In this document: positions 1,816-17,603 of the stretch, piece after piece | How the letters are laid out: each line of letters opens with the position of its first letter | Position numbering within the stretch: position 1 is the first letter of the stretch | Assembly (NCBI GenBank): GCA_028716525.1 | Contig: JAQUPQ010000032.1 | Coordinates: 1 to 46,838, forward strand | Direction of reading: 5' to 3' | From: Terriglobia bacterium | GTDB lineage: Bacteria > Acidobacteriota > Terriglobia > JAIQFV01 | Length of the DNA stretch: 46,838 bases | Translations under genes and position numbers: made by a program | Notes under the pieces: model-generated | Told to the model about the DNA's origin: nothing | Database searches by the model: none | The model's input: only the letters and a program-made list of their open reading frames with translations

Positions 1816-3270
1816 CTACGACGGATTCGGCAGCGGGCAACTGCAGCTGGTGATCGGCAGGATCGTACCATGAACGCTCACCACTCCTGAGCCAGTCGGG
1901 ATTCCATCGAAGGTGCCCGTTCCCGGTTGACCGCAGGTGTTGATTGCCCCTTTGACGAATCCATTGGGCAAGGGCTCAAAGAAGAATATGTTGCAACCCT
2001 CACTGAAAGATCTTCCCTGGCCAAAGGCAGTCAAGCCGGAGTTGCAATTCTGTAACTCAAAGAACCCGCGGATCGGATCAAAAAGCAGGCGATTTCCGGA
2101 AGAGTCCGCCACACAGATGCTGAAGTCGGGCGCGGGCGAACTGTCGGTTATTCCTGTGCGGCTTTCTCCTGGTGAGTTCGAGAACGGCGAACCGGGAACC
2201 AAAGTCAGAGTGCCGTTTGTGGCGATCTTAAAGACACTGACCGGATCATCGTTCGCACCGGTAACAAACAAGAACTGCCCTAACGGATCGGTTGTCAAGG
2301 CCTCTGTAAACCCGGTAATGCCGGTGCCAAAAGGGGACCCAGGTAGCAGCGTTGGCGTGCCACCGGGCGATAAGGCCAGCACGGTGATGGTATTGGAGAA
2401 TTGATTACTCACAAAGAGAAAGCGATTGTCGGGGCTGGGGAGCACTATGTTGGAGTTCACCCCGCTCTCAAAGAAAAATGGGGATCCAGCTATAGGCGAC
2501 AAAAAACCATTCGCTGCGACGCTGAACGCTTCAATTTCGGTATCTTCGTCGTTGGAATTGGCCACGTAAAGGAGCGTCCCCGTATTGTTGAAGGCGACAC
2601 CAGTGGGGTTCCCGAGATCTGTCTCAAACGCAGAACCCGGAACAGGAGACAATGCACCGCTGGCGGCAATGCTGAACATGTCAATCTCGCCACTGTCCGG
2701 GTCGGCAAAAGCCAGGAGCTTTCCATTGGGGCTGACGGCCATCCCATCAATATCGCTCGCGTCAGTTTCAAAGGGGGAACCTGATATCTGGCTGAGGACT
2801 CCGTTCCCAGCGATGGTGAATACTGCGACATATGCGGATCCATCATCGCCGGCAAACAGAAATTGCCCGTTAGGACTGACCGCCAAAGAAAGGCCTGCGC
2901 CGGAGCCCTCACCGGCAGTAAAAGGCGAGCCTGGAACCGTAGTGAGCTGTCCTGTGCCGGGGCTCACCGCAAAGGCGGAAACAGTGTTGTTTCCCCCGTT
3001 AGATGCGAATAAGAAATTCCCGTTGGATGAGATGACAATCAAATTGGTGGCAAAGAAACCGCTTCCTTGTCCAGTTCCTCCGGTCGCAAAGGGCGACCCG
3101 GGCAGAGGCAGCAAGGATCCATTCGATTGCACACTGAATGCGGAAACAGAATTGGGACCCTCCCTGTCGTTGTTGACGTAAATGAAATTCGCCTGAGCTG
3201 AGAGAATGGTGGTGAGAAAAACCACTCCTGCCAGGGTGACGACTATTCGAAAGCGTGATAAACAGTTCAT
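1816..3270 (-). CDS. Secreted YVTN/lactonase-like beta-propeller protein, copy A
   Basis: 484-residue exported protein. An N-terminal signal peptide (hydrophobic VVTLAGVVFLTTILSA, ending near AQA) precedes about eight propeller blades that each end in a PGSPF-type motif with LAVSPNGQFLF/VFNNTGTLLYV strands. These are typical of the lactonase (PF10282) and YVTN families. The last ~110 residues form a different, Cys-containing tail (NCNSG, EGCN, INTCGQ, SCSCP) that may be disulphide-bonded outside the cytoplasm. The ATG at 3270 was chosen because AGGAGAG lies about 12 bases upstream; a longer frame starts at 3318 but reads through that ribosome site. Substrate or ligand is unknown, and lactonase activity should not be assumed. 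It is the tandem paralogue of the gene at 3879-5339. Confidence 0.85.
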   Translation of the reverse strand: MNCLSRFRIVVTLAGVVFLTTILSAQANFIYVNNDREGPNSVSAFSVQSNGSLLPLPGSPFATGGTGQGSGFFATNLIVISSNGNFLFASNGGNNTVSAFAVSPGTGQLTTVPGSPFTAGEGSGAGLSLAVSPNGQFLFAGDDGSAYVAVFTIAGNGVLSQISGSPFETDASDIDGMAVSPNGKLLAFADPDSGEIDMFSIAASGALSPVPGSAFETDLGNPTGVAFNNTGTLLYVANSNDEDTEIEAFSVAANGFLSPIAGSPFFFESGVNSNIVLPSPDNRFLFVSNQFSNTITVLALSPGGTPTLLPGSPFGTGITGFTEALTTDPLGQFLFVTGANDDPVSVFKIATNGTLTLVPGSPFSNSPGESRTGITDSSPAPDFSICVADSSGNRLLFDPIRGFFELQNCNSGLTAFGQGRSFSEGCNIFFFEPLPNGFVKGAINTCGQPGTGTFDGIPTGSGVVSVHGTILPITSCSCPLPNPS

Positions 3271-3826
3271 GTTTTCTATTCCTCTCTCCTTGTCATGGGA
3301 TGTGAAACAGCAGTTCAAAGATTTTCTGAAATGCCGTTGTGGTCTGTTCTTTCAGTTGAAAAGCCGGGTATGTATCGGCCTGTGGAAACAGGTTCTGCCC
3401 GCTTCTGCAGTGAAGTTGCCCGCCGCATTTACGCCTCAAAAACGATGGATTTTCTGATTTAGAGTGAGCGAAAGTTCTTTTTCCCGTTGATTGATCAAAA
3501 GAATCTAAGTCTTTGGCTTGCTTTAAAGGTTGGAAACTCTCCAGTCAAGAATTATGAGGGGAAAGAAACCTCCACATAAACCCTCGAATCATTGTTGAAA
3601 GATTTTCAACCGGGACTGAGGATAATGATCGCATATTTCAGGCCCGAATCCACTGACGCAGACTCGCGACCCGATTCATGAAAAACTTCTGTTTCCGTAA
3701 GATGGACCAGATGCTAAGTCATTCGTATTCACCTGTCAAGGGGGATTTGTGTATGGCATAGCCCTGGGACATCGTATCCGTTTGACGGAGAGGTGAGGCA
3801 TTGACTGGTGTGCTGATGGCAGAAAA
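3271..3826. other. Intergenic region upstream of copy A
   Basis: About 550 bases without a convincing gene. The part up to 3749 is duplicated at 5340-5819. On the minus strand, TTGACT and TTGATG-type -35 elements with 17-base spacers to TAAAG(C/G) are kept in both copies (near 3515-3545 and 5580-5610), so they are candidate but weak promoters. The rest is AT-richer than the genes, and I see no hairpin of note. Confidence 0.5.
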
Positions 3827-3878: not shown

Positions 3879-5339
3879 CTACGACGGATTTGGCAGCGGG
3901 CAACTGCAACTGGTGATCGGCAGGATCGTACCATGAACGCTCACCACTCCCGAGCCAGTCGGGATTCCATCAAAGACGCCAGTTCCCTGTTGACCGCAGG
4001 TGTTGATTGCCCCTTTGACGAATCCATTGGGCAAGGGCTCAAAGAAGAATATGTTGCAACCCTCACTGAAAGATCTTCCCTGGCCAAAGGCAGTCAAGCC
4101 GGAGTTGCAATTCTGTAACTCAAAGAACCCGCGGATCGGATCAAAAAGCAGGCGATTTCCGGAAGAGTCCGCCACACAGATGCTGAACTCCGGCGTGGGC
4201 AAACTGTCGGTTATTCCTGTCCGAATTTGTCCCGGTGAGTTCGAGAACGGCGAACCGGGAACCAAGGTCAGAGTCCCGTTTGAGGCAATCTTAAAGACGC
4301 TAACCGGATCATCAATCTCACCACTAAACCCGGTAACAAACAAGAAATTGCCTAATGGATCTGTCGCCACGGCTTCTGTAAGCAAGTTCATGCCGGTCCC
4401 AAAAGGCGATCCGGGCAGCAGCGTCGGCGTGCCACCGGGCGATAAGGCCAGCACGGTGATGGTATTGGAGAGTAGATTACTTACAAACAGGAAACGGTTG
4501 TCGGGACTGGGGAGAACAATGTTGGAGTTCCTTCCACTGGCAAAACTAAATGGGGATCCGGAAATAGGCGCCAAAAAGCCATTCGCTGCGACGCTGAACA
4601 CTTCAATTTCGGTATCTTCCACGTTGAAATTGCCCACGTAAAGGACCGTCCCCGTATTGTTGAACGCGAGACCGGTGGGGCGCCCGAGATCTGTCTCAAA
4701 TGGAGAACCCGGAACAGCCAACAATGCACCGCTGGCGGCAATGCTGAATATGTCAATAGCGCCGTTAGGGTCGGCAAAAGCCAGGAGCTTTCCATTGGGG
4801 CTGACGGCCATCCCATCGATGTCGCTCGCGTCAGTTTCAAAGGGGGAACCTGGTATCTGGCTGAGGGCTCCGTTCCCAGCGATGGTGAATACTGCGACGT
4901 ATGCGGATCCATCATCGCCTGCAAACAGAAATTGCCCGTTAGGACTGACCGCCAAAGAAAGGCCTAGGCCGGAGCCCACACCGGCAACAAAAGGCGAGCC
5001 TGGAACCGTCGTGAGCTGTCCGGTGCCGCTGTTTACCGCAAAGGCGGAAACGGTGTGGTTTCCCCCGTTAGATGCGAATAAGAAATTCCCAGTGGATGAG
5101 ATGACAATCAAATTGGTGGCAAAGAAGCCTATTCCCTGTCCGGTTCCTCCGGTCGCAAAGGGCGACCCGGGAAGAGGCAGCAAGGATCCATTCGATTGCA
5201 CACTGAATGCGGAAACAGAGTTGGGACCAGCAATGTCGTTGTTGACGTAAATGAAATTCGTCTGAGCTGAGAGGATGGTGGTGAGAAAAACCATTCCAGC
5301 AAGGGTCAAGAGAATTCGAAAACGTGAAAAACCGTTCAT
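3879..5339 (-). CDS. Secreted YVTN/lactonase-like beta-propeller protein, copy B
   Basis: 486 residues, paralogue of the gene at 1816-3270 with the same order: signal peptide (ILLTLAGMVFLTTILSA), about eight blades with repeated PGSPF ends, and the Cys-containing C-terminal tail. The ATG at 5339 has AGGAGAG about 14 bases upstream, as in copy A. Relative to copy A it has small in-frame indels (for example FSGEIDDP against ANDDP) and many conservative changes in mid-protein blades. The last ~120 residues are almost identical, which suggests gene conversion or selection on the tail. Function is unknown; a surface or periplasmic binding protein is the cautious reading. Confidence 0.85.
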   Translation of the reverse strand: MNGFSRFRILLTLAGMVFLTTILSAQTNFIYVNNDIAGPNSVSAFSVQSNGSLLPLPGSPFATGGTGQGIGFFATNLIVISSTGNFLFASNGGNHTVSAFAVNSGTGQLTTVPGSPFVAGVGSGLGLSLAVSPNGQFLFAGDDGSAYVAVFTIAGNGALSQIPGSPFETDASDIDGMAVSPNGKLLAFADPNGAIDIFSIAASGALLAVPGSPFETDLGRPTGLAFNNTGTVLYVGNFNVEDTEIEVFSVAANGFLAPISGSPFSFASGRNSNIVLPSPDNRFLFVSNLLSNTITVLALSPGGTPTLLPGSPFGTGMNLLTEAVATDPLGNFLFVTGFSGEIDDPVSVFKIASNGTLTLVPGSPFSNSPGQIRTGITDSLPTPEFSICVADSSGNRLLFDPIRGFFELQNCNSGLTAFGQGRSFSEGCNIFFFEPLPNGFVKGAINTCGQQGTGVFDGIPTGSGVVSVHGTILPITSCSCPLPNPS

Positions 5340-6022
5340 ATTCTTTTTTCCTCTCTCCTATTCAATAGATGTGAAACAGCAGTTCGAGAATTTTCTGAAA
5401 TTCCCTTGTTGTGTGCTACTTACACGGCAAAGAACCGAGCACGCGTTGATCTGTGGGGACAGGATCTGCCCGCCCTTGCCGTGAAAGCGCCCATCGTTTG
5501 TTCGCCTCACCAGCGATGGATTTTCTGATTTAAAGTGAGTGAGGGTTTTTTCCCGTTGATCAATTAGAAAAATTTAAGTCTTCGCTTGGCCTTTAGAAAG
5601 TGGAAAGTTTTCCATCAAGAATCATGAAGGGAAAGAAACTTCCACCTAAATCCTCGAATCATCGTTGAAAGATTTTCCACCGGAAATAAGGATAATGGTC
5701 GCAAATCTCAGGCCCGAATCCACGGACGCAGCGTCGCGACCCGATTCATTAAAAACTTCTGTTTCTGTAAGATGAACCAGATGCTAGGTCATTCGTATTC
5801 ACCTGTCAAGGGGGATTTGGAAAAGCGACACTGTCGATGTCCAGAGCCGGGTTGAGCCTTTGAAAGAATCTGCTGCCACAATCAATTGCTCACTCTTTCA
5901 TAGGAAAACTGCTGGCATTTGCAACCCGCCCCGATCTTGCGGGGGGTCAAGATGCTGCACCCAGTCAAAAAACATGAAAGGAATAACCGTCTTCAAGCGA
6001 GTGGATAAGATGAACCCGGCAT
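5340..6022. other. Intergenic region between NUDIX gene and copy B
   Basis: Up to 5819 this is the duplicated upstream region of copy B. From 5820 to 6022 it is unique and holds a short GC hairpin (CCCCG / CGGGG around 5932-5947) without a T run. A 73-codon plus-strand frame here has no ribosome site or recognisable protein and is not called. Confidence 0.5.
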
Positions 6023-6556
6023 TCACAAATTCAACTTTGACCGGACCAGCAGGAGGCTTGCAATCGACTTGGCGTCGATGATGACGCCACCGAAGAGCAT
6101 GGCGTAAACTTTTTCGAGGGAAATGATGTGGATTTCAATATTCTCGTCATCGTCGGGCCGCGGAGCGGTTTTGGTCAGAGAGGAAGCCAAGATGACATGC
6201 ATTTTTTCGTCGGTGAAGCCCGGAGCGGAATAAAAGGAAAACAGTTCGGAAATGGATGCCGCCTTGTATCCGGTTTCTTCTTCCAGTTCCCGGAGTCCGG
6301 CCTGAGGAATGGTTTCTCCCGATTCAACACTTCCGGCGGGGAGCTCCCACAAAAACTCGTCGGTGGCGTAGCGATATTGCCGGATCAAAAGGATTTCGCT
6401 CTTACTGAGCAGGGGAAAGATGACCACGGCGGGGGAATGACGGACCACATCTCGAACCACAATCCGCCCGTTGGGTTCAACGACGCGGTCGGTAATGACT
6501 TCAAAGGTTTTTCCGGCAAAGAGTTTTTGGGTGTTAAGAATTCTCGACCTTGACAT
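6023..6556 (-). CDS. NUDIX hydrolase, ADP-ribose pyrophosphatase-like
   Basis: 177 residues. It likely hydrolyses a nucleoside diphosphate linked to another moiety, ADP-ribose being the usual substrate of this subgroup. The complete Nudix box GX5EX7REUXEEXGU is visible as GSVESGETIPQAGL then RELEEETGY (about residues 76-98). It follows the QYRYATDEFLWELPAG strand typical of ADPRase/YffH-type enzymes. The ATG at 6556 has GGGAG seven bases upstream. It lies 56 bases behind argJ on the same strand and is probably co-transcribed with it. The substrate is inferred from subgroup resemblance only. Confidence 0.9.
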   Translation of the reverse strand: MSRSRILNTQKLFAGKTFEVITDRVVEPNGRIVVRDVVRHSPAVVIFPLLSKSEILLIRQYRYATDEFLWELPAGSVESGETIPQAGLRELEEETGYKAASISELFSFYSAPGFTDEKMHVILASSLTKTAPRPDDDENIEIHIISLEKVYAMLFGGVIIDAKSIASLLLVRSKLNL

Positions 6557-6612
6557 ATGATTTCTCCCACTCCCTCAGCCGCCGCGACCCACGGCCAAAA
6601 ATATAGAACACT

Positions 6613-7845
6613 TCAGGTTCGGTACGCAGCGTTGATGCGGATGTAACCTTCTGTCAAGTCGCATGTCCACATGCGGGCTTGTTGTGTTCCCTGATTTAAA
6701 TTCAAATCAATCCGAATCTCCGGGCCGGACAAGAGTTGCTTTGTCCGGAGCTCGTCAAATGCTATTTGTTGTCCACGACGGCAAACCTGGACGCCACAAA
6801 GCCCGATATCAATGCGGTCGGGATCAATCGATGCCCCCGAATATCCGGCCGCGCAAATAATGCGACCCCAGTTGGCGTCGGCCCCGGCGATGGCGGTCTT
6901 CACGAGGGGCGAATTGGAAATGGCGCGCGCCACCATTTCAGCTTGCGATGCGGTGCGGGCGCCTGCAACTGTGATGGTGATGAACTTCGAAGCCCCTTCG
7001 CCGTCGCGCGCAATCATCTGAGCCAGCGACGTACAAACTTGCGCCAAGCCGTCTTGGAAGTGCTCGAAAGGCTTGCCCCGTTTGGAGATTTCCTCAACTC
7101 CGGCCGCGCCATTGGCAAACAACAACACGGAATCGTTGGTGGAGGTATCACCATCAACCGTCAGGCGATTGAACGATTCATCGACGGCCGTCTTCAATGC
7201 AGCCCGCAGTAGCGGGGTTGAAATGGCCGCGTCGGTAGTGAGAAACGCCAACATGGTTGCCATTCGGGGATGGATCATGCCTGCGCCTTTGGCAACGCCG
7301 GCGAGGGTCAAAGACTCCCTTCCCAAGCGCGATTGCAGCACGCAAACTTTAGGCCGGGTGTCGGTCGTCAGGATGGCTTCGGAAAAATCCCGCCCGCCTT
7401 CAAAACAGAGAAGGCCTTTCAGCGGTCGAATGGCGATTTGTATGCGCTCCAGAGGGAGCGGTTGGCCAATCACACCTGTGGAAGCCACCAGGACGGAGCT
7501 GCGGGAGACGCCCAGAACCTTGGCCACTTCCTTGGCTGTCTGCTGAGCGGCGATGAATCCCGGGCGTCCAGTGCAAGCGTTGGCATTTCCGGAATTGACC
7601 ACCACGGCCTGGATTCGCCCTCTCGATTCCGCCAGATGCTGTCGACACACTCGCACGGGAGCGGCTACAACTCGATTGGTTGTGAAGAGACCCGCTCCCC
7701 GGGCCGGATTCAAAGAATAGAGCAATGCCAGGTCCTTTCGAGTGGATCCCGGTTTTATCCCGGCATGTATGGCTGAAGCCACATATCCCTTCGGAGTTGT
7801 TATCTCTCCAGGAATTTCTTTCCAGGTGCTACTGTTTTTGTACAT
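6613..7845 (-). CDS. argJ: Bifunctional ornithine acetyltransferase/N-acetylglutamate synthase
   Basis: Transfers acetyl from N-acetylornithine to glutamate (the recycling step of arginine synthesis) and in some organisms also uses acetyl-CoA. 410 residues from the ATG at 7845, the family's usual length. The self-cleavage site is clear in KGAGMIHPRMATMLAFL (cleaved before Thr in MATML). Other landmarks are NSGNANACTG and AGADANWGRI. The ATG at 7845 overlaps the end of the preceding propeller gene by 17 bases and has no good ribosome site. A second ATG at 7914 has AGAAGG at the right distance but would add a Pro-rich extension unlike ArgJ, so the start is unsettled. Because a separate GNAT-type synthase gene is in the cluster, ArgJ may act only in recycling. 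Confidence 0.95.
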   Translation of the reverse strand: MYKNSSTWKEIPGEITTPKGYVASAIHAGIKPGSTRKDLALLYSLNPARGAGLFTTNRVVAAPVRVCRQHLAESRGRIQAVVVNSGNANACTGRPGFIAAQQTAKEVAKVLGVSRSSVLVASTGVIGQPLPLERIQIAIRPLKGLLCFEGGRDFSEAILTTDTRPKVCVLQSRLGRESLTLAGVAKGAGMIHPRMATMLAFLTTDAAISTPLLRAALKTAVDESFNRLTVDGDTSTNDSVLLFANGAAGVEEISKRGKPFEHFQDGLAQVCTSLAQMIARDGEGASKFITITVAGARTASQAEMVARAISNSPLVKTAIAGADANWGRIICAAGYSGASIDPDRIDIGLCGVQVCRRGQQIAFDELRTKQLLSGPEIRIDLNLNQGTQQARMWTCDLTEGYIRINAAYRT

Positions 7846-9919
7846 GAGTTTGGGTCGGGGTTTGGGCTGTTGATTCGATTCGGGCGTCGGAAGAGACCGG
7901 GCCTTCGGCACCATACAAGCCTTCTCTGAAAAAGAGCACAAAAAACCGATTTGGGGATTGCGGATCAGGTAACAGAGATCGATATTTCATTCCTGCGCCG
8001 GGGAACGGGCTCATCCACTCCCACGTTTTACCCAAATTGGTGGAGCGATACAGCGAGCCGAAATAAGACTCACTGACATAAATTTCTGTTCCTTGCCGGG
8101 CGTCGATCTGGATGTCTGACATTTCAGAACGGGGCAATCCTCCCTGCGCCCGGGACCAGGAGTTTCCGCCATCTTCAGATCGGAAGAGGCCGTTGCCTGT
8201 GGCCACGAGCAGGACTTGCGATTTCTGAGGAACGGCCCGGATGCAATGGATGGGAGTTGGTCCATCCTCAAAATCGACTACTTTCCAATGCACCCCTTCA
8301 TCTGTTGAAACGGCCAGTCCCTTGTCTGTGCCATAAAAAACACGGCCATCATCAAGCGTCAACACTCCGATTCCGGCGGAATCCTTGAAAGGGGCGTTTA
8401 CTCGAACCCACTTTTGGCCTGAATCTCGCGTCGCAAACAAGCCGCGTTGAGAAGCGGCATAGAAATAATGACCGTAGGCGGATTCACCGGACAAGCTTGA
8501 GACCGTGCCCATTCCGGGAAGTGAAGCCGGCTTGATGTTTCTTCGGGGCGGCAGAGAATGTGCGGGCCGGGCGGAAATAATTTTAGGAACAGAGGATTGC
8601 TCCGCCATCGAGACGTTTATGTCCATGCGCCGCCATTCATTCCGGGCGCGATCGTACAGAAATGCTCCATCGGCGGTTCCCGCCCAAAGTGAATTGTCCT
8701 CGGGCGAGAGATATAAAACGTGAACGTCCGTCGACCCGAGTCCATGATTGATGGTTCTCCAGGTCGCACCGCTGTCTTCACTCACAAAGACGCCGCCGAA
8801 CTCATGATCATACAAGACTCCCAGGTAAATCCGCTGAGGCGACTGGGGGTCGAAAACGATCGATGAGACGGCGCGGTTCGTAAATCCATCGTTGATGGGA
8901 GTGAAATGCGTTCCCGAGTCGGTACTCACCAACACACCGGCGTCATCGGTTCCCAAAAGAAGGCGGTTGTGATTGCTGGAATCCACGACGATGGCGTTCA
9001 CGGTCAGTGTTCGCGAGGTCATTTGATTCCACGTCACGCCGCCGTCCAGAGATCGCCAAAGTCCCTCGGTGGTTCCGGCGTACACCGAAAGGGGATTGGA
9101 GGGATCTGCCACAATGGCGCGGGTACGCCGGCTGGAAGATGGTATTCCCTTAAATTTGGCCCACAGGCTTCCTCCATCGGCGGATTGATAAATCCCCGTG
9201 CAGGCACTTAACAAAACGTGATCAGGGATGGTCGGTTGAATGAAGATGGCGAAGACGTCGGAGTCTTCGACGATGCCGCGCTGAATGTGGGTCCAATTCT
9301 GACCGCCATCGACGGTTTTCCAAGGCAGGTGCCAGGTTCCGGCATAAATGACGCGAGGATTGCGCGGATCGATGGCAATGGATTCCACATTTCGGATCTC
9401 CTCGTGATGGGGCGGTGAAATCTGGCTCCAATGTTCACCGCCGTCCTGTGAGGAAAAAACACCCTCCAGCGTTCCTGCCACCAGAATGTGTTGATCACTC
9501 GGCGCCATGGCCAGCGCCCGAACAGATTGTCCATGGATGCCGGGCAAGTCTTTCCAAGTGTGTCCGGCATCGGTGCTGAGAAGGACCCCGCCTTCCGCAT
9601 TGGACGCAATGGACCACGTCCCGACGTAAATCCGTTTGGGATCGGTGGGATCAACAAGAATATGATCGACCACAAAATCAGATCGGGCGGAGATGGAACT
9701 CAAGCGCTCCCAATGGGTACCCCCCGTGGTCGAGAAGAATATCTGGCTGTCGGACGTACCTAAGTAAAGGTGGAAGGGATTTTTGGGATCCTGGGCCAGC
9801 GACCGGACGTCGCCTCCAAAGGGGCCCAGTGACCGCCAGGAACCACCGGCGGTTTCGGCACACAATATCAAAAACAACAAAACTGCTATAGGCAGCTTCT
9901 GGATTACAAGGTTTTTCAT
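7829..9919 (-). CDS. Secreted Asp-box (BNR/YCF48-like) beta-propeller protein
   Basis: 696 residues from the ATG at 9919, which begins a clear signal peptide (LPIAVLLFLILCAETAGG). At least eleven Asp-boxes of the SxDxGxxW kind are spaced along the chain (STDAGHTW, SQDGGEHW, TVDGGQNW, SADGGSLW, SLDGGVTW, SEDSGATW, STDEGVHW, SEDGGNSW and others). This is the sortilin/YCF48/sialidase-type repeat that builds 7- to 10-bladed propellers. No sialidase catalytic set was recognised. A longer frame to 10222 is open, but it has no signal peptide at its start and spans a likely promoter at 10131-10158. The gene sits between argA and argJ and overlaps argJ by 17 bases, odd company for an exported protein. 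Function unknown. Confidence 0.85.
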   Translation of the reverse strand: MKNLVIQKLPIAVLLFLILCAETAGGSWRSLGPFGGDVRSLAQDPKNPFHLYLGTSDSQIFFSTTGGTHWERLSSISARSDFVVDHILVDPTDPKRIYVGTWSIASNAEGGVLLSTDAGHTWKDLPGIHGQSVRALAMAPSDQHILVAGTLEGVFSSQDGGEHWSQISPPHHEEIRNVESIAIDPRNPRVIYAGTWHLPWKTVDGGQNWTHIQRGIVEDSDVFAIFIQPTIPDHVLLSACTGIYQSADGGSLWAKFKGIPSSSRRTRAIVADPSNPLSVYAGTTEGLWRSLDGGVTWNQMTSRTLTVNAIVVDSSNHNRLLLGTDDAGVLVSTDSGTHFTPINDGFTNRAVSSIVFDPQSPQRIYLGVLYDHEFGGVFVSEDSGATWRTINHGLGSTDVHVLYLSPEDNSLWAGTADGAFLYDRARNEWRRMDINVSMAEQSSVPKIISARPAHSLPPRRNIKPASLPGMGTVSSLSGESAYGHYFYAASQRGLFATRDSGQKWVRVNAPFKDSAGIGVLTLDDGRVFYGTDKGLAVSTDEGVHWKVVDFEDGPTPIHCIRAVPQKSQVLLVATGNGLFRSEDGGNSWSRAQGGLPRSEMSDIQIDARQGTEIYVSESYFGSLYRSTNLGKTWEWMSPFPGAGMKYRSLLPDPQSPNRFFVLFFREGLYGAEGPVSSDARIESTAQTPTQTHVQKQ

Positions 9920-10285
9920 GAATCGTCCGGCATCCCGCTGAGGGGATCGCAGCCGGTGTTTCTCAAAGCGCAATGTTCGCGAGCCTGAAATCGTGCCACC
10001 CTCAAATTGATCAAAAACGCATGGGTAGCACCGAAGCCTGCTGATACCGGCCACTGATCTTGCTGACCCGCCCTCGTGAACAAACGGGCCTACCCAGACG
10101 TTTTCCTGCAACGTCGCAGCTTGAAATGGAATTATGTCTTGGAATTGGAATTTGTAAAGTAAAAATGAGAAAAAATCCAACTTCATCCTGGAGCGGAGAT
10201 CGGAAAGCCGTCGGCGCTCCATCGGTTGTCCGGCTCATGAGGACGAAAATGGCGGTCCGAAATGCCCTTCACAGACCCGCACACT
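9920..10285. other. Intergenic region between propeller gene and argA
   Basis: 366 bases on the minus strand side of the arg operon. It contains the promoter at 10131-10158 and a 7-base inverted repeat TGGAGCG / CGCTCCA near 10192-10222 that lacks an adjacent T run. Nothing else is seen. Confidence 0.5.
10131..10158 (-). promoter_or_regulatory. Promoter for Asp-box propeller-argJ-NUDIX run
   Basis: Minus strand TTTACA (10153-10158), 16-base spacer and CATAAT (10131-10136), each hexamer one mismatch from consensus. The implied start near 10124 leaves a ~200-base leader before the propeller ATG. If used, argJ would be expressed separately from the ArgR-controlled promoter. Confidence 0.5.
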
Positions 10286-10795
10286 CTACAACTTTCGAAG
10301 CATCGCGATTTCGTTGCAGTTATTGAAAAACGAGCAATTAATGCAATCTTTCCATACTTTCAGCGGAAGACTTGTGTGAGGGACTTCCTGGAAGCCAAAC
10401 TTTTCGAAGAAACGCGGAACATAAGTGAAAGCAAAAACCGATGAGATATTCAATTGACGGGCTTCGTCGAGCAGATGGAGAACGATGTCCCGCCCGATGC
10501 CCTGACTTTTGTGCGTGGAGGCGACCGCCAGGGATCGAATTTCGGCCAAATCTTCCCAGTAGCAATGCAGCGCTCCGGTGCCGATCACTTGACCGGCCTC
10601 TTCCGCGACAGCGTAATCCCGGACTTGCTCATAGATCTGCATCAGTGTCCGCGGGAGCATCAAGCGTTCCTTGGCGTATCCCTCGATGATCGCCTGAATC
10701 ACTGTGGCATCGGTCAACCGGGCCGGACGAATCGAAATCGCCGGCGGGGCCGCGGCAACAACCCTATTCAATTTGTGCGAGGACATGTTTTGCAT
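10286..10795 (-). CDS. argA: Short GNAT-type amino-acid N-acetyltransferase (N-acetylglutamate synthase)
   Basis: Likely acetylates glutamate with acetyl-CoA, the first step of arginine synthesis. About 169 residues form a single GNAT domain: IRPARLTDA at the start, the LAEIRSLAV strand and the acetyl-CoA loop THKSQGIGRD. The C-terminal YVPRFFEKFGFQEVP resembles the short NAGS seen in actinobacteria and in some arg clusters. It lacks the amino-acid kinase domain of classical ArgA. Several starts are possible: ATG 10795 or 10786, or GTG 10831. None has a good ribosome site, and all overlap the end of argH, suggesting translational coupling. Assignment as NAGS rests on context plus subfamily resemblance. 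Confidence 0.85.
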   Translation of the reverse strand: MQNMSSHKLNRVVAAAPPAISIRPARLTDATVIQAIIEGYAKERLMLPRTLMQIYEQVRDYAVAEEAGQVIGTGALHCYWEDLAEIRSLAVASTHKSQGIGRDIVLHLLDEARQLNISSVFAFTYVPRFFEKFGFQEVPHTSLPLKVWKDCINCSFFNNCNEIAMLRKL

Positions 10796-12146
10796 TGTTG
10801 ATGGCTTTTTGAACAAACTTTCGTGCCACACCCCCTTCGATGGCTTTGCTTTCGACAGCGCGTTCGAGCGTCAGCGCCTTCCGTACATCCTCGTTGAAGA
10901 GAGGAGAAAAAGAGCGAAATTCATGGAGTTCCAATTCCTCGAGAGGCACACCTTTCTGAAGCGCGTATCGAACAATCTTCCCGGTCAATTCATGAGCTTT
11001 ACGAAAGGGCAGGCCTTTCTGCGCTAGATAATCCGCGCAGTCGGTGGCGTTGGCGTGACTGGCAAGAGCTGCGCGGGCCATGGCATGGCTGTCAAGTTTC
11101 AAAGTTTGAAGGACCAGCGTGGCCATCTCCAGAGAGCCGAACACCGTATCCACGGTATCAAAAACCGCTTCCTTGTCCTCCTGCATGTCTTTGTTGTAAG
11201 CCAGGGGCAGGCCTTTCATCACGACCAGAAGACGAAGGAGATTCCCGTACACGCGTCCGGTTTTGCCGCGTATCAATTCCAAAGAATCGGGATTCTTCTT
11301 TTGGGGCATCAAACTGCTCCCTGAAGACACGGCATCGCTTAATTCGACGAAATGAAATTCCGCCGTCGAAAACAAAATCAAATCTTCCGCCAGCCGGCTG
11401 AGATGCATCATCAGGATTGCCAGGCAACTCAATAATTCCGCGACATGGTCGCGGTCGCTGACCGCATCCAGGCTGTTGCGTGTGGGCCGTCGAAATCCCA
11501 GCTCGCGTGCCAGAAATTGGCGATCGATGGGAAAACCGGAACCCGCCAAAGCCCCCGATCCCAGAGGCAATGTGTTCATGCGTCGGCTGCAGGATTCCAA
11601 CCGCTCCAAGTCCCGAACCAACATTTCAAAGTAGGCCAGCCAGTAGTGCGCCAGGCGAATCGGTTGGGCCCGCTGCAAGTGTGTATAGCCCGGCAGAATC
11701 ACGTCCAAGTGCTTCTCGGCATTTTGAGTCAATGTTCGGAGAAGCAGGAGCAGACGCTCACGGATCCCTTTAGACTCGCTTCGCAAATACAGTTTCAAAT
11801 CCAGCGCCACCTGATCGTTGCGGCTTCTTCCGGTGTGGATTTTCTTTCCTAAATCGCCGACAGCAGCCACCAGCTGGGCTTCCACAAAGGAATGAACGTC
11901 TTCGAACTGTGGCAGCGCATCCCTGAGCGTTCGAGGGCGCGCGGCGATGCGGTTGACCAGGTTGCGGAGAGCGCGCTGCAATTTCTTTGATTCCGGAGCT
12001 GTTAAAATGCCGGCGCGTTCCAAAGCTTTGCAATAGGCCAAGCTGCCTTGGACATCAAAAGGCAGCAGTCGATAATCAAAGGAGAAGGAGTTGTTAAAAC
12101 GCTCGAACAACGGCGAGGGACCCTGTTGAAAGCGGCCGCCCCACAT
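10764..12146 (-). CDS. argH: Argininosuccinate lyase
   Basis: Cleaves argininosuccinate to arginine and fumarate. 460 residues with the fumarase/aspartase-superfamily signature GSSLMPQKKNPDSLELIRGK, the early MWGGRF start motif, HTGRSRNDQVALDL and TRNSLDAVSDRDH. The ATG at 12146 was chosen because GAAGG lies eight bases upstream. The longer frame begins with a GTG at 12191, overlaps argG by 20 bases and has no usable ribosome site. The 3' end overlaps the argA start. Confidence 0.96.
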   Translation of the reverse strand: MWGGRFQQGPSPLFERFNNSFSFDYRLLPFDVQGSLAYCKALERAGILTAPESKKLQRALRNLVNRIAARPRTLRDALPQFEDVHSFVEAQLVAAVGDLGKKIHTGRSRNDQVALDLKLYLRSESKGIRERLLLLLRTLTQNAEKHLDVILPGYTHLQRAQPIRLAHYWLAYFEMLVRDLERLESCSRRMNTLPLGSGALAGSGFPIDRQFLARELGFRRPTRNSLDAVSDRDHVAELLSCLAILMMHLSRLAEDLILFSTAEFHFVELSDAVSSGSSLMPQKKNPDSLELIRGKTGRVYGNLLRLLVVMKGLPLAYNKDMQEDKEAVFDTVDTVFGSLEMATLVLQTLKLDSHAMARAALASHANATDCADYLAQKGLPFRKAHELTGKIVRYALQKGVPLEELELHEFRSFSPLFNEDVRKALTLERAVESKAIEGGVARKFVQKAINNAKHVLAQIE

Positions 12147-12171
12147 TTTGCGTGCCTTCGATTGTTCCGCC

Positions 12172-13404
12172 TTACTTGTTGGTCTTGACACGCTCCATCT
12201 TCCCTTCGAGCAGGGCCTTCACCTTGAGAGGAAGACCAAGACAGTTGATGAATCCTTCCGCATCCTTCTGGTTGTACACCTCGCCCATGGTGAAGGAGGA
12301 AAGATCTTCGCGGTACAGCGAATGCGGAGAGGATCGTTTCACCACGCTGACCGTGCCCTTGTAGAGTTCCAAAGTCACTTCGCCGGTGACTGGGTCTTGA
12401 GTCGAATCCACGAATGCATCGAGAGCTTCCCGCAGGGGAGTGAACCACTGCCCGTAATACACCAGCTCGGCGTACCGAATGGCCAGCTGGTCTTTTTGGT
12501 GCAGGGTTTCCCGATCCAAGCAGATGGATTCCAGCTCCCGGTGGGCAGAATACAGCAGCGTTCCACCCGGCGTTTCATAACAGCCGCGGGATTTGATGCC
12601 CACGAGGCGGTTTTCGACGAGATCGATTCGACCCACGCCGTGCTCGCCGCCGATGGAATTCAACACTTCGAGCAGCGTGACGGGGCTCAAGGCCGCGCCG
12701 TCGACACTCACCGGTGTGCCTTTTTCAAAACCCAGGGTGACTTGAGCCGGACGATCGGGAGCTTGTTGCGGCGATTTCGTGATCATCCACATGGAGTCGT
12801 CCGGAGCATTATTGATATTTTCCAGCCGTCCACCTTCGTGGGACACATGCCAAAGATTGCGATCGCGGCTGTAGATTTTCTCCTTGGAAGCAGTGATTGG
12901 AATGTGGCGTGCCTCGGCATAATCGATGGCATCCTCACGCGATTTGATGGACCACTCCCGCCACGGGGCGATGACCTTCAGATGCGGGGCCAAGGCCTTA
13001 AAAGTCAGTTCAAATCGCACCTGGTCGTTGCCCTTGCCCGTGCAGCCGTGAGAAACCGCGTCGGCCCCTTCCCGCAGAGCGATTTCCACTAATCGCTTGG
13101 CTATGGCGGGTCGGGCGAAGGAGGTGCCCAAAAGATATTTGGACTCGTAAATGGCGCCGGCGCGCAAAGTCGGCCAGATGTAATGGCGGACGAATTCGTC
13201 ACGCAAATCCTCAATGTAGATTTTGGAAGCCCCGGTCGAGAGCGCTTTTTCGCGCAAGCCTTCGAGCTCTTCCGCTTGCCCGACATCGGCGGCCATGGCA
13301 ACAATCTCGCAGCCATAGTTTTCCTTCAGCCAGGGAATGATAATAGAGGTATCCAAGCCACCGGAGTAGGCCAGGACCACTTTTTGAATTGATGTGTTGA
13401 CCAT
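12172..13404 (-). CDS. argG: Argininosuccinate synthase
   Basis: Joins citrulline and aspartate using ATP. 410 residues, normal length. The N-terminal pyrophosphatase-type P-loop is [14 protein letters not shown]. Further landmarks are the [13 protein letters not shown] block and the [13 protein letters not shown] and [17 protein letters not shown] segments. The ATG at 13404 has AAGG about 12 bases upstream. It lies 55 bases behind argD; the carbamoyltransferase gene argF, often found in this position, is missing. Confidence 0.97.
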
Positions 13405-13459
13405 ATGCTTCTTGCCTTATTTGAGATTTCGCCTTCCGCGATGAAGCCCGCCAGAACAT

Positions 13460-14662
13460 TCAATGGGGCAGTACTTGATCCAGGGCATCAATGAGCCGAT
13501 CGATGTGTTCGCGTTCAATGAGATAAGGCGGTAGGAATCGAAGTACCGTCTCATTGGCGCAATTAATGACATAGCCTCGATCAAGCATCTGTCGCACAAT
13601 CTCCTTTCCCGAAGAGGAAAGTTGCATGCCGATCATCAAACCTTTACCCCGAATTTCTTGAACTGCAGGATGCCGGGCGCGCAGCTCAGCCAAGCGGCCT
13701 GAAAAATATTGACCCTGCGATGCCACCTTTTCGAGTAGACCCTGTTCCTCCATGATTTGGAAAAACTCCAAGCTGACCCGGCAAGCCAGAGGACCGCCGC
13801 CGAAAGTAGAGCCATGCGTCCCCAGAGCCAGATCTTCGCGGACCTTCTTGACACCCAGAAGGGCGCCCATGGGGATTCCGAGACCCAGAGGCTTGGCCAC
13901 GGCCACCAGGTCGGGCTGGACATCGGTATGCTGAAAAGCGAAGAATTTTCCGGTGCGGCCCAAACCGCATTGCACCTCGTCAAAAACCAGCATGGCGTTG
14001 TGGTCATCACATGCGGCGCGAGCGGCCTTCAGAAAAGCCGCGTCTAGAACCTGAATTCCACTCTCACCCTGGATGGGTTCCAAAATGACGGCGCACGTTT
14101 TATCCGTCACGGCTGCATGCAGCGCGTCGATGTCGTTGCGGGGAATGAAATGAACTCCCGGAATCAAGGGCTCGAAAGGTTTGCGATACTTTTCTTGGCC
14201 GGTCAATGAGAGCGCCCCGCATGTGCGACCGTGAAAAGAATCCAGCAATGCCACGACTTCAACTTTGGGGTTTGCTTGGCCGTTGGAGTTGCGGTAGGCA
14301 CGAATGCGGGCGGCTTTCAATGCGGCCTCGACGGCTTCCGTTCCACTGTTGCAAAAGAAGACGGAGTCCAGACCACTCAGGCGGCAAAGAGTCTGCGCCA
14401 AAGCCGCTTGGTATTCGTTGTGGTAGAGATTGCAGACATGGAGAATTTTCCGTGCTTGGTCCGTAATCGTGGAGACGATGCGGGGATGATTGTGTCCCAG
14501 GGCATTGACTGCAATGCCGCTTAAAAAGTCCAAGTATTGTTTTCCGTTCTCATCGAACAGGAAAACGCCTTCGCCGCGGACAAAAACCACGGGGGCGCGG
14601 GCGTAAGTCGGAAAGACAAATTCCTGATCCAGGGTCTGCACGGCCGAGCGGGTGGAAGTCAT
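13460..14662 (-). CDS. argD: Acetylornithine aminotransferase
   Basis: PLP enzyme that makes N-acetylornithine from the semialdehyde and glutamate. 400 residues of class III aminotransferase. It shows FLSGIAVNALGHNHP, the FFCNSGTEAVEAALKAAR block, HGRTCGALSLTG, the PLP-binding LVFDEVQCGLGRTGKFFAF and the Schiff-base lysine in VAVAKPLGLGIPMGA. The K is followed by P rather than the usual G, a mild peculiarity. The ATG overlaps the argB stop in an ATGA arrangement. Confidence 0.96.
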   Translation of the reverse strand: MTSTRSAVQTLDQEFVFPTYARAPVVFVRGEGVFLFDENGKQYLDFLSGIAVNALGHNHPRIVSTITDQARKILHVCNLYHNEYQAALAQTLCRLSGLDSVFFCNSGTEAVEAALKAARIRAYRNSNGQANPKVEVVALLDSFHGRTCGALSLTGQEKYRKPFEPLIPGVHFIPRNDIDALHAAVTDKTCAVILEPIQGESGIQVLDAAFLKAARAACDDHNAMLVFDEVQCGLGRTGKFFAFQHTDVQPDLVAVAKPLGLGIPMGALLGVKKVREDLALGTHGSTFGGGPLACRVSLEFFQIMEEQGLLEKVASQGQYFSGRLAELRARHPAVQEIRGKGLMIGMQLSSSGKEIVRQMLDRGYVINCANETVLRFLPPYLIEREHIDRLIDALDQVLPH

Positions 14663-15459
14663 TGCACCGCACCTGCCCCTATAGCCGTGCCCAACGGCTC
14701 GCCTTGGGCGATCAAACGCTTCAAACCGTCTTCGATCGACCCGTTCAGAATGTTGATGCCGCCCACGCCGCCGTCCAGCGCAGCCAGACAGGCATTCAGC
14801 TTGGGAAGCATTCCGCCGGTCACCACTTTGTCGGCCACCAGATGCTTGACCTTGGCGGGATTAATTTTGGGAAGAACGGTGCGTTCTTTGCTCAACACGC
14901 CGTCCACGTCGGTCAGAAACACCAGCTGATCCGCCTGCAAAGCGACGGCGCAGGCCGCGGCCATTTGATCGGCGTTGATGTTGTAATAATGATGATCCGG
15001 ACCCATGGCCACACAGGAGATCACCGGAAGGTAGTCATTTCGCAATAAGAGATCGATCAGGTCGGTATTAATCATCGACACGGTCCCGACAAAACCGTAA
15101 TCCACCGTGGCGTGTTCCAGTTTCTGAGCCAACACGGCTCCTCCATCGCCCCCGCATAGTCCAATTGCACGGCATCCCACCGCTGCAAATGACGCCACCA
15201 ACTTTTTATTGACCACACCCGCCAAGGTCATGAGAGCCGCGTCCATGGTTTCGGCGTTCGTAATTCGCAAACCTTCGTGAAAGTGTGACGGCACGTCCAG
15301 GCGATTGAGGAGCGAGGTCAGGGCTTTTCCGCCGCCATGAACCACCACCACCTTCTGGGTGTCGGTCACCAAGCCGGCGATTTGCTTGACCAGCGCTTCC
15401 TGCCGGGACTCGTCATTCAAAATGCTTCCGCCTATTTTTACGACAATGCGAGAGCTCAT
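14659..15459 (-). CDS. argB: Acetylglutamate kinase
   Basis: Phosphorylates N-acetylglutamate. 266 residues of the amino-acid kinase fold: VVKIGGSIL at the N-terminus, VVVHGGGKALTSLL for substrate and phosphate binding, NINADQMAAACAVALQADQLVFLTDVDGVL and a C-terminal GGMLPKLNACLAAL. The start is four bases after the argC stop; the end overlaps argD by four bases. No N-terminal helix of the arginine-inhibited hexameric type is obvious, so feedback inhibition is uncertain. Confidence 0.96.
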   Translation of the reverse strand: MSSRIVVKIGGSILNDESRQEALVKQIAGLVTDTQKVVVVHGGGKALTSLLNRLDVPSHFHEGLRITNAETMDAALMTLAGVVNKKLVASFAAVGCRAIGLCGGDGGAVLAQKLEHATVDYGFVGTVSMINTDLIDLLLRNDYLPVISCVAMGPDHHYYNINADQMAAACAVALQADQLVFLTDVDGVLSKERTVLPKINPAKVKHLVADKVVTGGMLPKLNACLAALDGGVGGINILNGSIEDGLKRLIAQGEPLGTAIGAGAVQ

Positions 15460-15462
15460 CGT

Positions 15463-16542
15463 TTATTCCAGGCCGGAACTTTCTTCCAGACCAAACATCA
15501 AATTCATATTCTGGACAGCTTGTCCGGCAGCCCCTTTCATCAGATTGTCGATGCACGATATGAGAATCAGCCACGAAGATTCCGGATCGTTCTGTATCCC
15601 CACATCGCAGTAATTCGTGTGGGTCACAAATTTGATTTCCGGCAGCCGACCCTCCGGATAAATTCGAACGAAGGGCGCTCCCGAATAGAAATCCGTGAAG
15701 GCCCGCCGGATGGAACCCACGCTCACTCCCGGTTTCGGCTTCACATACAGCGTGGAAAAAATCCCCCGGTTAATGGGCAGCAGATGCGGGGTAAATATAA
15801 ATGTCGAGGTGCCATTCAATCCCAGCGCCTGCTTGATCTCCGGCGTGTGACGGTGCGAAAAGACGGAGTAGGCTTTAAACGACTCGGACACCTCACAAAA
15901 ATGCGTATTGGCCGTGGGTTGTTTCCCGGCTCCACTCACGCCGGACTTGCTGTCACAGACGATGGACGCCGCGGGATCGAGAAGATCGTCCTGAATCATC
16001 GGCAACAAAGGAATCAACGCCGAGGTGGCATAACATCCCGGATTGGCGACCCATTTGGATTTCCGAATGACTGCGGAATTCATTTCCGGAAGTCCGTAAA
16101 TGAATTGGGAAAGCATTTGAGGCGCCGCGTGATCGAAACCGTACCAGCGCGGATACTGGGCCGCGTCTTTAAGACGAAAGCCGCCGCTGAGATCGATGAT
16201 CTTGAAAGCAGAATCCTTGAACTGTGGAATGACGGCAACGGAGGTTTCATTGGGCGTGGCAAAGAAAACCACATCGGGTTTGGATTCGCACAAATGCTTC
16301 TCATCAAAACCGTCTACCTTCACCGAAGATCTCACTGCCGAAGCATCCCCGGGGGAGACAGGCCCCTTGTTTTCGGTTGTGGCAGACGAGGCGTGGGCAG
16401 CCGGAGAGGAATAAAGCCCCGCCAACTCGACGCCGGGATGGCGGCGCAGGAGCCGGACCAATTCCATGCCGGAGTAGCCCGTGGCGCCCACCACGGCGGT
16501 TCGAAGTTTGGAAAATGTTTGTGTTCTATCCGACATCGTCAT
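15463..16542 (-). CDS. argC: N-acetyl-gamma-glutamyl-phosphate reductase
   Basis: NADPH-dependent reduction of the acyl phosphate to the semialdehyde. About 359 residues. The dinucleotide-binding loop VVGATGYSGMELVRLL lies near the start and the catalytic cysteine is in WVANPGCYATSALIPLL. HTPEIKQ and FTPHLLPINRG are conserved C-terminal blocks. The ATG at 16542 overlaps the argR stop as ATGA and is preferred over a TTG at 16551; an ATG at 16536 is also possible. Confidence 0.96.
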   Translation of the reverse strand: MTMSDRTQTFSKLRTAVVGATGYSGMELVRLLRRHPGVELAGLYSSPAAHASSATTENKGPVSPGDASAVRSSVKVDGFDEKHLCESKPDVVFFATPNETSVAVIPQFKDSAFKIIDLSGGFRLKDAAQYPRWYGFDHAAPQMLSQFIYGLPEMNSAVIRKSKWVANPGCYATSALIPLLPMIQDDLLDPAASIVCDSKSGVSGAGKQPTANTHFCEVSESFKAYSVFSHRHTPEIKQALGLNGTSTFIFTPHLLPINRGIFSTLYVKPKPGVSVGSIRRAFTDFYSGAPFVRIYPEGRLPEIKFVTHTNYCDVGIQNDPESSWLILISCIDNLMKGAAGQAVQNMNLMFGLEESSGLE

Positions 16543-16985
16543 CCCACCCAATTCAGAAACTTCTTTCGTAAGCTGCGCGCGGTGGCTGCCGAGCGGGTCA
16601 CGACCAGAATGGTGTCGTCGCCCGCAATCGTTCCCACAACCTCAGGAAGCGAGGCTTTGTCGAGTGCGATCCCCAGGGCATTGGCGTTGCCGGGCGGTGT
16701 CTTCACCACAATAAGATTGTTGGCCGGGCTGGCCTCCCGCAGAAATTCCCGCATCACGCGCTTCAAGTCTCCATTGGGGAATTGCGAAGGTTCCGCCACC
16801 TGGGCGGGAAGTTTGTATCCCTCCGCGGTCTTCACCAGTCCCAGTTCCGCCAAGTCCCGCGACAGGGTTGCCTGGGTGGCGGCCAAGCCGGATTTCTTGA
16901 GTTCCATCTGCAAAGCGTGTTGATTCGGAATGGGAGCTTGCCGGACCAACTTTAAGATTGTCTCGTGGCGTAAAGGCTTCGTCAT
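16539..16985 (-). CDS. argR: Arginine repressor
   Basis: Arginine-sensing transcriptional repressor that heads the operon it probably controls. About 148 residues. The N-terminal winged helix has the recognition segment SGLAATQATLSRDLAELGLVK. The C-terminal oligomerisation and arginine-binding part ends with GTIAGDDTILVVTRS, including the GD that contacts arginine in known ArgR. The ATG at 16985 has GGGGGAC four bases upstream; the open frame beyond it to 17039 runs through the promoter and is not coding. A strong promoter with ARG-like boxes lies immediately upstream, consistent with autoregulation. Confidence 0.95.
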   Translation of the reverse strand: MTKPLRHETILKLVRQAPIPNQHALQMELKKSGLAATQATLSRDLAELGLVKTAEGYKLPAQVAEPSQFPNGDLKRVMREFLREASPANNLIVVKTPPGNANALGIALDKASLPEVVGTIAGDDTILVVTRSAATARSLRKKFLNWVG

Positions 16986-17004
16986 AAGTCCCCCGTTGCG
17001 GCAG

Positions 17005-17038
17005 TGCATATAAATCGTGCAACATGTATAATTATACA
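17005..17038 (-). promoter_or_regulatory. Putative tandem ARG boxes (ArgR operator)
   Basis: TGTATAATTATACA (17025-17038) is a perfect 14-base palindrome that fits the TG(N)ATWWWWAT(N)CA pattern of ArgR boxes. A weaker partner, TGCATATAAATCGTGCA (17005-17021), lies right beside it. Paired boxes with a few bases between them are usual for hexameric ArgR. The perfect box covers the -10 of the argR promoter, so bound repressor would block RNA polymerase. Confidence 0.7.
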
Positions 17039-17058
17039 ATTGATCCGGAGGCTGTCAA
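17031..17058 (-). promoter_or_regulatory. Promoter of the argRCBDGHA operon
   Basis: Minus strand TTGACA (17053-17058), 16-base spacer and TATAAT (17031-17036). Both hexamers are perfect. The implied start near 17024 is about 40 bases before the argR ATG at 16985. Confidence 0.8.
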
Positions 17059-17603
17059 CTGAAAAGATGAGGTCTTGCAAATAATTGCGCCCTGTTGTTA
17101 GGGCTGAGCGTAGTCCGCCGTAAAACGGGCGGACAACCCAGGGCTATGAAGATGTCCCTTGCAGGGACCAAAAAACTGTCGCTTCAAGTGCCTGATTGCA
17201 TTTTCATCCCCTGGGGTGCCCCGATCCATCGGGGCATGAGAAGCTGCCTCGAAAATAGGAGAGGTTTCTGTCGCCACTGCCGGGGCTGGGCGATCTTATG
17301 CGTGCGCAAGACTACCAGAACGATTTTCATGGCCTTGGGTGGCCCGATGCATCGGGCGTACGAGGAGCTGCCTCGAGAATAAGTCGCGCTTTGGCAGCAA
17401 GAGGCCGCGCCCCGCTGCGGTTAAATTCTAAAAGAGCGATTATCGTCGACTTCGATTTACCTCGGCATTTTTGATAGTATTTCGACTAGGCACAGGCCTC
17501 AAGTTGGTGGTCTCGTGAATTGTTGGAGTTGTCGTCTTGATATGAGGCGAGTCAGGAATTTGAGCCGATCGGCTTCATTGGGCTTTTGCACCGCGGGGAG
17601 GAT
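17059..17603. other. Intergenic region, argR to ECF sigma factor
   Basis: About 545 bases. The part 17095-17395 is a dispersed repeat (separate entry). From 17400 to 17603 the DNA is AT-richer and should hold the promoter of the sigma factor gene, but I could not pick a convincing one. A 95-codon plus-strand frame at 17095-17382 is only the repeat being read. Confidence 0.5.
17095..17395. repeat. Dispersed palindromic repeat cluster, locus 1
   Basis: Contains modules that recur, reverse-complemented, at 35640-35880: an ACAACCCAGGGCTAT stretch, TGTCCCTTGCAGGGACCA, a GTGCCCCGATNCATCGGGGCATGAG module and a CCTCGAAAATAGGAGAGG module. Each module has a small internal palindrome (CCCTTGCAGGG, CCCCGAT..ATCGGGG). 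The second half repeats the GATGCATCGGG module in degenerate form. No transposase is linked. Confidence 0.8.

Follow-up and report, generated by a model that had tools for sequence, protein, structure and literature searches.

Several described systems bear a likeness to the gene analysed here, which codes for an exported propeller (P0001) and lies inside an arginine operon. In the GH74 xyloglucanases two catalytic acids stand in the cleft between two propellers, and these enzymes, like sortilin/Vps10, have Asp-box repeats and a profile match in common with P0001. The propeller matches are however partial, catalytic residues or a ligand are putative at most in P0001, and our protein is bacterial and often encoded beside an OmpA-type gene. 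The assembly propellers Ycf48 and HCF136 are also exported Asp-box propellers of the PSII_BNR type, and by analogy an assembly-factor role like theirs is possible, although P0001 is about twice as long (696 aa versus chains of ~330-350 aa) and its score of 44.5 bits falls below the NCBIfam equivalog cut-off for Ycf48 (326 bits). BamI, a component of the BAM complex of Bacteroidota, is a six-bladed propeller; it is a lipoprotein of the cell surface and carries an Ig-like domain (PMC12578637). Its likeness to P0001 is that of an envelope propeller connected with outer-membrane proteins. In contrast to BamI, P0001 has no canonical lipobox by eye, and it scores 21.5 bits where the NCBIfam equivalog cut-off for BamI is 370 bits. 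The literature, surveyed through titles and the starts of abstracts, yielded no description of a propeller paired with an outer-membrane protein (OMP) or of a propeller in an arginine operon, and we claim no wider absence.

Biosynthetic operons can take in unrelated passenger genes. Similarly, at this locus a foreign gene lies near the operon end, with a candidate internal promoter and overlapping genes. It differs from the usual passengers in that it codes for an exported protein and in that translation of argJ is apparently coupled to it.

The arginine operon and the propeller protein

The window, that is the whole stretch of 46,838 nucleotides analysed, carries on its minus strand an operon running from 16985 down to 6023 in the order argR-argC-argB-argD-argG-argH-argA-propeller-argJ-NUDIX (Table 1). 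An earlier note had placed an exported propeller gene between argA and argJ, overlapping argJ by 17 bases, and our analysis of coordinates, Pfam matches and neighbours bears it out on each point. Over positions 5900-17600 Rfam gave no match. The operon lacks argF. In the window genome this gene lies on another contig (G000:C47:16925-17830), and it is at other sites too in the two remaining genomes of the family, G001 and G002. Downstream of the operon, two near-duplicate exported repeat proteins stand in tandem on the minus strand (1816-3318 and 3879-5339, frames of 500 and 486 aa). A 1367-aa exported frame, named by reading for its many FG-GAP-like repeats, occupies 20004-24107 of the same strand.

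Table 1. Features of the arginine operon in the window.
Feature	Position	Strand	Basis
NUDIX hydrolase gene	6023..6556	-	PF00293
argJ, 410 aa	6613..7845	-	PF01960, E 1.7e-152
Propeller/argJ overlap, 17 bases	7829..7845	-	Same length in 3/3 family genomes
Propeller gene (P0001)	7829..9919	-	Pfam, Asp-box motifs, hydrophobic start, orthologues
Promoter-like element TTTACA-16-CATAAT	10131..10158	-	Conservation in family genomes
Short argA-type GNAT acetyltransferase gene, overlapping argH	10286..10786	-	PF00583
argH	10764..12191	-	Name from translation and synteny
argG	12172..13404	-	Name from reading of translation and synteny
argD	13460..14662	-	Name from reading of translation and synteny
argB	14659..15459	-	Name from reading of translation and synteny
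argC	15463..16536	-	Name from reading of translation and synteny
argR	16539..16985	-	Name from reading of translation and synteny
argR promoter with tandem ARG-box-like palindromes	17003..17058	-	Consensus scan, palindrome score versus shuffles

The reading frame of the propeller is open up to 10222, upstream of the ATG at 9919. We take this ATG as the start because it directly precedes the most hydrophobic stretch of P0001 (15-mers starting at residues 4-11) and lines up with the propeller starts in G001 and G002. Hydrophobicity reaches 2.43 in this N-terminal stretch versus 1.27 beyond residue 40, and on its hydrophobic export-type N-terminus P0001 is predicted to be exported. In Pfam, the Sortilin-Vps10 model (PF15902) matches at E 1.6e-38 (133.1 bits, cut-off 33), PSII_BNR/YCF48 matches at E 5.2e-12 and BNR models match too; all three kinds of model also match in each of the 24 orthologues scanned. 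A relaxed pattern finds 11 Asp-box-like motifs, with D or N at the third position in 10, and five of the 11 fit the full Asp-box consensus as given in PMC2716378. P0001 thus has both the repeated motifs and the profile score above cut-off by which the Asp-box propeller superfamily is recognised. Its single-sequence AlphaFold2 model has a mean pLDDT of 36.6, too low for a fold to be read from it.

P0001 also exceeds the cut-off of the NCBIfam model NF045728, F510_1955 family glycosylhydrolase (206.1 bits, cut-off 175). The model is 246 positions long and aligns with six stretches of the protein, so its name tells little of the activity of P0001. When a 24-row profile, built from P0001 and from 23 orthologues out of 29 picked, was compared with solved structures, GH74 xyloglucanases came out best (7kn8, 1.6e-35; 2cn3, 2e-33), followed by Ycf48 and sortilin. 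Residues 1-430 hold 37 of the 40 columns that are invariant among the orthologues, the acids D184, D219 and D221 among them, so the conserved site is in the first part of the propeller.

Age and expression of the arrangement

We examined three genomes from two genera of the order to which the window genome (G000) belongs, two of the three being of one genus. The ten-gene order is the same in all three, and so in both genera, and the propeller overlaps argJ by exactly 17 bases in 3/3. Between the genera the propellers are ~57% identical and synonymous differences have reached saturation, with pS at 0.73-0.86 in argA, propeller and argJ, while within genus g2 the dN/dS values (propeller 0.137, argJ 0.082, argA 0.05) point to purifying selection. 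Taken together, the order common to two genera, the saturated synonymous sites and the purifying selection argue that the propeller is neither recent nor decaying, contrary to one of the two explanations offered in the earlier note.

The comparison of synteny proposed in that note shows, on the other side, that the arrangement is old within the family without being universal. Of the 121 genomes of the class 114 have argJ, and in 40 genomes that belong to its other families the stretch around argJ holds no propeller. An ancestral member of the arginine operon of the class should be found beside argJ elsewhere, and in these 40 it is not. In 16 of them argJ directly follows argH or argA, the aligned ends lying 32-235 bases apart; in the other 24, some of which are short contigs, the stretch fetched has no arg gene of the window directly upstream. 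The NUDIX gene after argJ has the same distribution (3/3 family genomes, 0/40 other argJ stretches) and is, as read from these stretches, a second family-specific passenger of the operon. In the 12 of the 40 stretches with both argD and argG matched, these genes are separated by ~1.03-1.19 kb, a gap in which argF was found in G045 and G029; the argD-argG junction of the window is at 13404-13460.

The gap between argA and the propeller contains a promoter-like element that matches the promoter consensus in 10/12 positions. By itself a consensus scan finds no more sites than chance would give (5 versus a mean of 5.7 in shuffles). Conservation is what singles the element out: aligned without gaps, the regions upstream of the propeller in the window and in G001 reach a best score of 24.4, where the highest of 300 shuffles is 14.4. 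A degenerate pattern made from the three copies of the element finds one site per family genome at <=3 mismatches, where the reversed control finds 0, and with one site per genome a promoter motif shared by a regulon was rejected. From the end of the element to the propeller ATG there are 18 nt in G001 and G002 and 211 nt in the window; the whole gap between argA and the propeller measures 107 bp in those two genomes and 366 bp in the window. The leader from the element to the ATG (9920-10130) is thus ~190 nt longer in the window; a repeat element was rejected for 9925-10100, which is single-copy in the window genome. That the promoter was carried along from the old site of the gene is not supported, as a narrow pattern gave 1 promoter-like site in 43 OMP-propeller gaps.

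The argR promoter (TTGACA-16-TATAAT, 17058-17031) matches the consensus in 12/12 positions and is overlapped by ARG-box-like palindromes at 17040-17023 and 17020-17003. Both upstream regions, of argR and of the propeller, were scored with the ARG-box consensus. Before argR, tandem boxes 20 bases apart occur in 3/3 genomes (15+13, 14+14 and 15+14 matches of 18), and their best score is reached by 1, 4 and 0 of 300 shuffles, respectively. Upstream of the propeller we found no ARG box, the best score being reached by 29, 83 and 94 of 300 shuffles in the three genomes, so the propeller has no direct operator at its own promoter as a member of the ArgR regulon would. Since the ARG boxes precede argR and not the propeller, argJ probably gains an ArgR-independent promoter.

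The candidate promoter of the earlier note is borne out as a conserved element. The note also proposed that the propeller probably forces transcription of argJ to start outside the ArgR operator, and this holds in so far as a second promoter would be added. 'Forces' is too strong a word, because no terminator-like site is reported on the minus strand of the argA-propeller gap (10285-9920) and read-through from the argR promoter may occur. With respect to translation, there is no purine-rich SD close to the argJ ATG in the window or in G001, and G002 has AGGAG 14 nt upstream. The 17-base overlap, together with an argJ that has no close SD in the window and G001, makes coupled translation likely, and the overlap is probably where argJ is translationally coupled to the propeller. 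We infer both the promoter and the coupling from sequence conservation.

The propeller across the phylum and its outer-membrane neighbour

Relatives of the propeller are found across the phylum, reaching E<=1e-80 in 45/121 genomes of the class and E<=1e-90 in 100/396 of the phylum, the window genome included in both counts. From 78 propeller loci fetched, 76 had the gene according to our gene picker (L027 and L115 were left out); two of these belong to the window family and 74 do not. A tree of 77 propellers, made by a quick method, unites the three family rows with support 100 and nests them, with no clear sister, in a clade of 41 rows from the class (support 96); G021 and the second copy of G008 are placed outside this clade and have long branches. 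With the family rows inside the class clade, horizontal transfer is not supported. The simplest reading of the tree is that the propeller is old and vertically inherited, its descent having involved a relocation.

What lies next to the propeller elsewhere is not an arginine gene. The stretches around the 74 non-family propellers hold none of the arg genes of the window and one NUDIX match (L051). In 44 of these 74 loci an OMP-type gene is found on the same strand as the propeller, directly upstream (-1) in 41, at -2 in two and at +1 in one. Six of these OMPs were scanned with Pfam, giving PKD_4 in five, OmpA in five and an outer-membrane barrel in two, and several of the 44 (L128, L132, L133 and L138; 401-488 aa) appear to end before the OmpA part. 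The other 30 loci have no OMP neighbour among the genes listed, though the picker goes by the longest frames and so overlooks some genes; an OMP gene ~3 kb upstream in G109 is uncounted.

The two genes are also found in the same genomes. With cut-offs of E<=1e-95 for the OMP profile (39/121 genomes) and E<=1e-80 for the propeller, 38 of the 121 class genomes have both, seven the propeller only, one the OMP only and 75 neither. The association (Fisher 4e-23) is uncorrected for ancestry and hence confounded, and it depends on the cut-offs, on few candidates scored per genome and on an OMP profile whose rows were supplied by six genomes that are themselves among those scored. In G021, the genome counted as having the OMP only, a propeller with a weaker match (1.9e-61) adjoins the OMP gene. 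In family f6, where presence is patchy, eight genomes have both genes and 12 neither, with none having one of the two (p 8e-6); both occur in 21/21 genomes of f9 and in 6/7 of f7, the seventh having neither. A propeller without the OMP was seen in four f5 genomes and one f8 genome. A linked and co-distributed OMP gene suggests that the propeller may have a role in the envelope together with the OMP.

Possible roles of the propeller

What could be the role of the propeller, and why is it encoded among arginine genes? On these comparisons we consider it rather probable that an old, vertically inherited envelope propeller, perhaps the partner of an OmpA-type OMP, moved into the arginine operon in the ancestor of the family, and that the arginine setting is its housing and not its function. 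The move would have taken place before the two genera split. The protein would be made and then exported to the periplasm or the cell surface, where it may act as partner, scaffold or assembly factor of the OmpA-type protein. Its gene would be transcribed from its own promoter and by read-through from the ArgR-controlled argR promoter, argJ (and the NUDIX gene) would profit from the propeller's promoter, and translation of argJ would be coupled to that of the propeller through the overlap. A bolder version, which we put forward tentatively and with some doubt, is that throughout the phylum the propeller is a dedicated partner or assembly factor of the PKD/OmpA-type OMP, rewired here in such a way that synthesis of ArgJ, a cytoplasmic arginine enzyme, would depend via the overlap on the translation of an envelope protein bound for export, and argJ would receive a constant basal supply from an ArgR-independent promoter.

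Alternatively, P0001 could be an exported enzyme, GH74-like or another Asp-box glycosidase, that has no special tie to OmpA-type proteins and stands in the operon by chance. The GH74 structures at the head of the profile matches, the glycosylhydrolase family score and the invariant acids of residues 1-430 speak for it. The GH74 likeness is, nevertheless, one of profile similarity, with partial matches over Asp-box repeats that non-enzymes such as Ycf48 and sortilin also have, and an enzyme would leave both the recurrent OMP neighbour and the co-occurrence unexplained; we think this reading unlikely. A propeller functionally tied to arginine or nitrogen supply, its place in the operon having been selected, was the other explanation of the earlier note. 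It could appeal to a position kept under purifying selection in all three genomes of the order and to the possible read-through from an ArgR-controlled promoter. We judge it highly improbable, since the arrangement is confined to one family, with arginine genes missing from the 74 other propeller loci and propellers from the 40 other argJ loci, the promoter-like element of the propeller is separate and without an ARG box, the equally unrelated NUDIX gene joined the same operon, and the neighbour that does recur is an OmpA-type OMP gene. As far as the sequences tell, nothing seems to point to arginine. As for a recent insertion or an assembly artefact in the window genome alone, the longer argA-propeller gap would fit it, but the same order and the same overlap in the two other genomes, across two genera, refute it, and the leader stretch 9925-10100, being single-copy, is not a known repeat of that genome, which leaves it practically no chance.

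If the envelope propeller was indeed housed in this way, its place in the operon chiefly illustrates how operons change: a gene for an exported protein came to rest between two genes of arginine synthesis, and through a long divergence both the promoter-like element and the fixed 17-base overlap were kept. Of more use as a lead is an uncharacterised exported propeller that is linked to, and co-distributed with, an OmpA-type OMP gene over much of the phylum; the pair names a partner that can be tested, and it draws attention to the envelope of a group on which little work has been done. The window family, in which the two kinds of gene stand apart, offers a natural experiment on whether one of them needs the other. 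In this family G002 passes the OMP cut-off (2.8e-113, an 846-aa protein), and the matches in G000 (4.9e-88) and G001 (3.8e-84), just short of 1e-95, combine a FadL-type barrel with PKD and OmpA parts. The canonical partner thus seems to be missing from two of the three genomes, unless genome gaps hide the gene, as they could in the window genome (96.5% complete, 104 contigs); being below the cut-off in these two, it may have been lost, replaced or not needed. Elsewhere in the window genome, locus L139 (G000:C17:66000-76877) has at 6586-10302 two adjacent PKD/OmpA-type OMPs, one of them with a FadL-type barrel, and these adjoin genes resembling fatty-acid oxidation genes.
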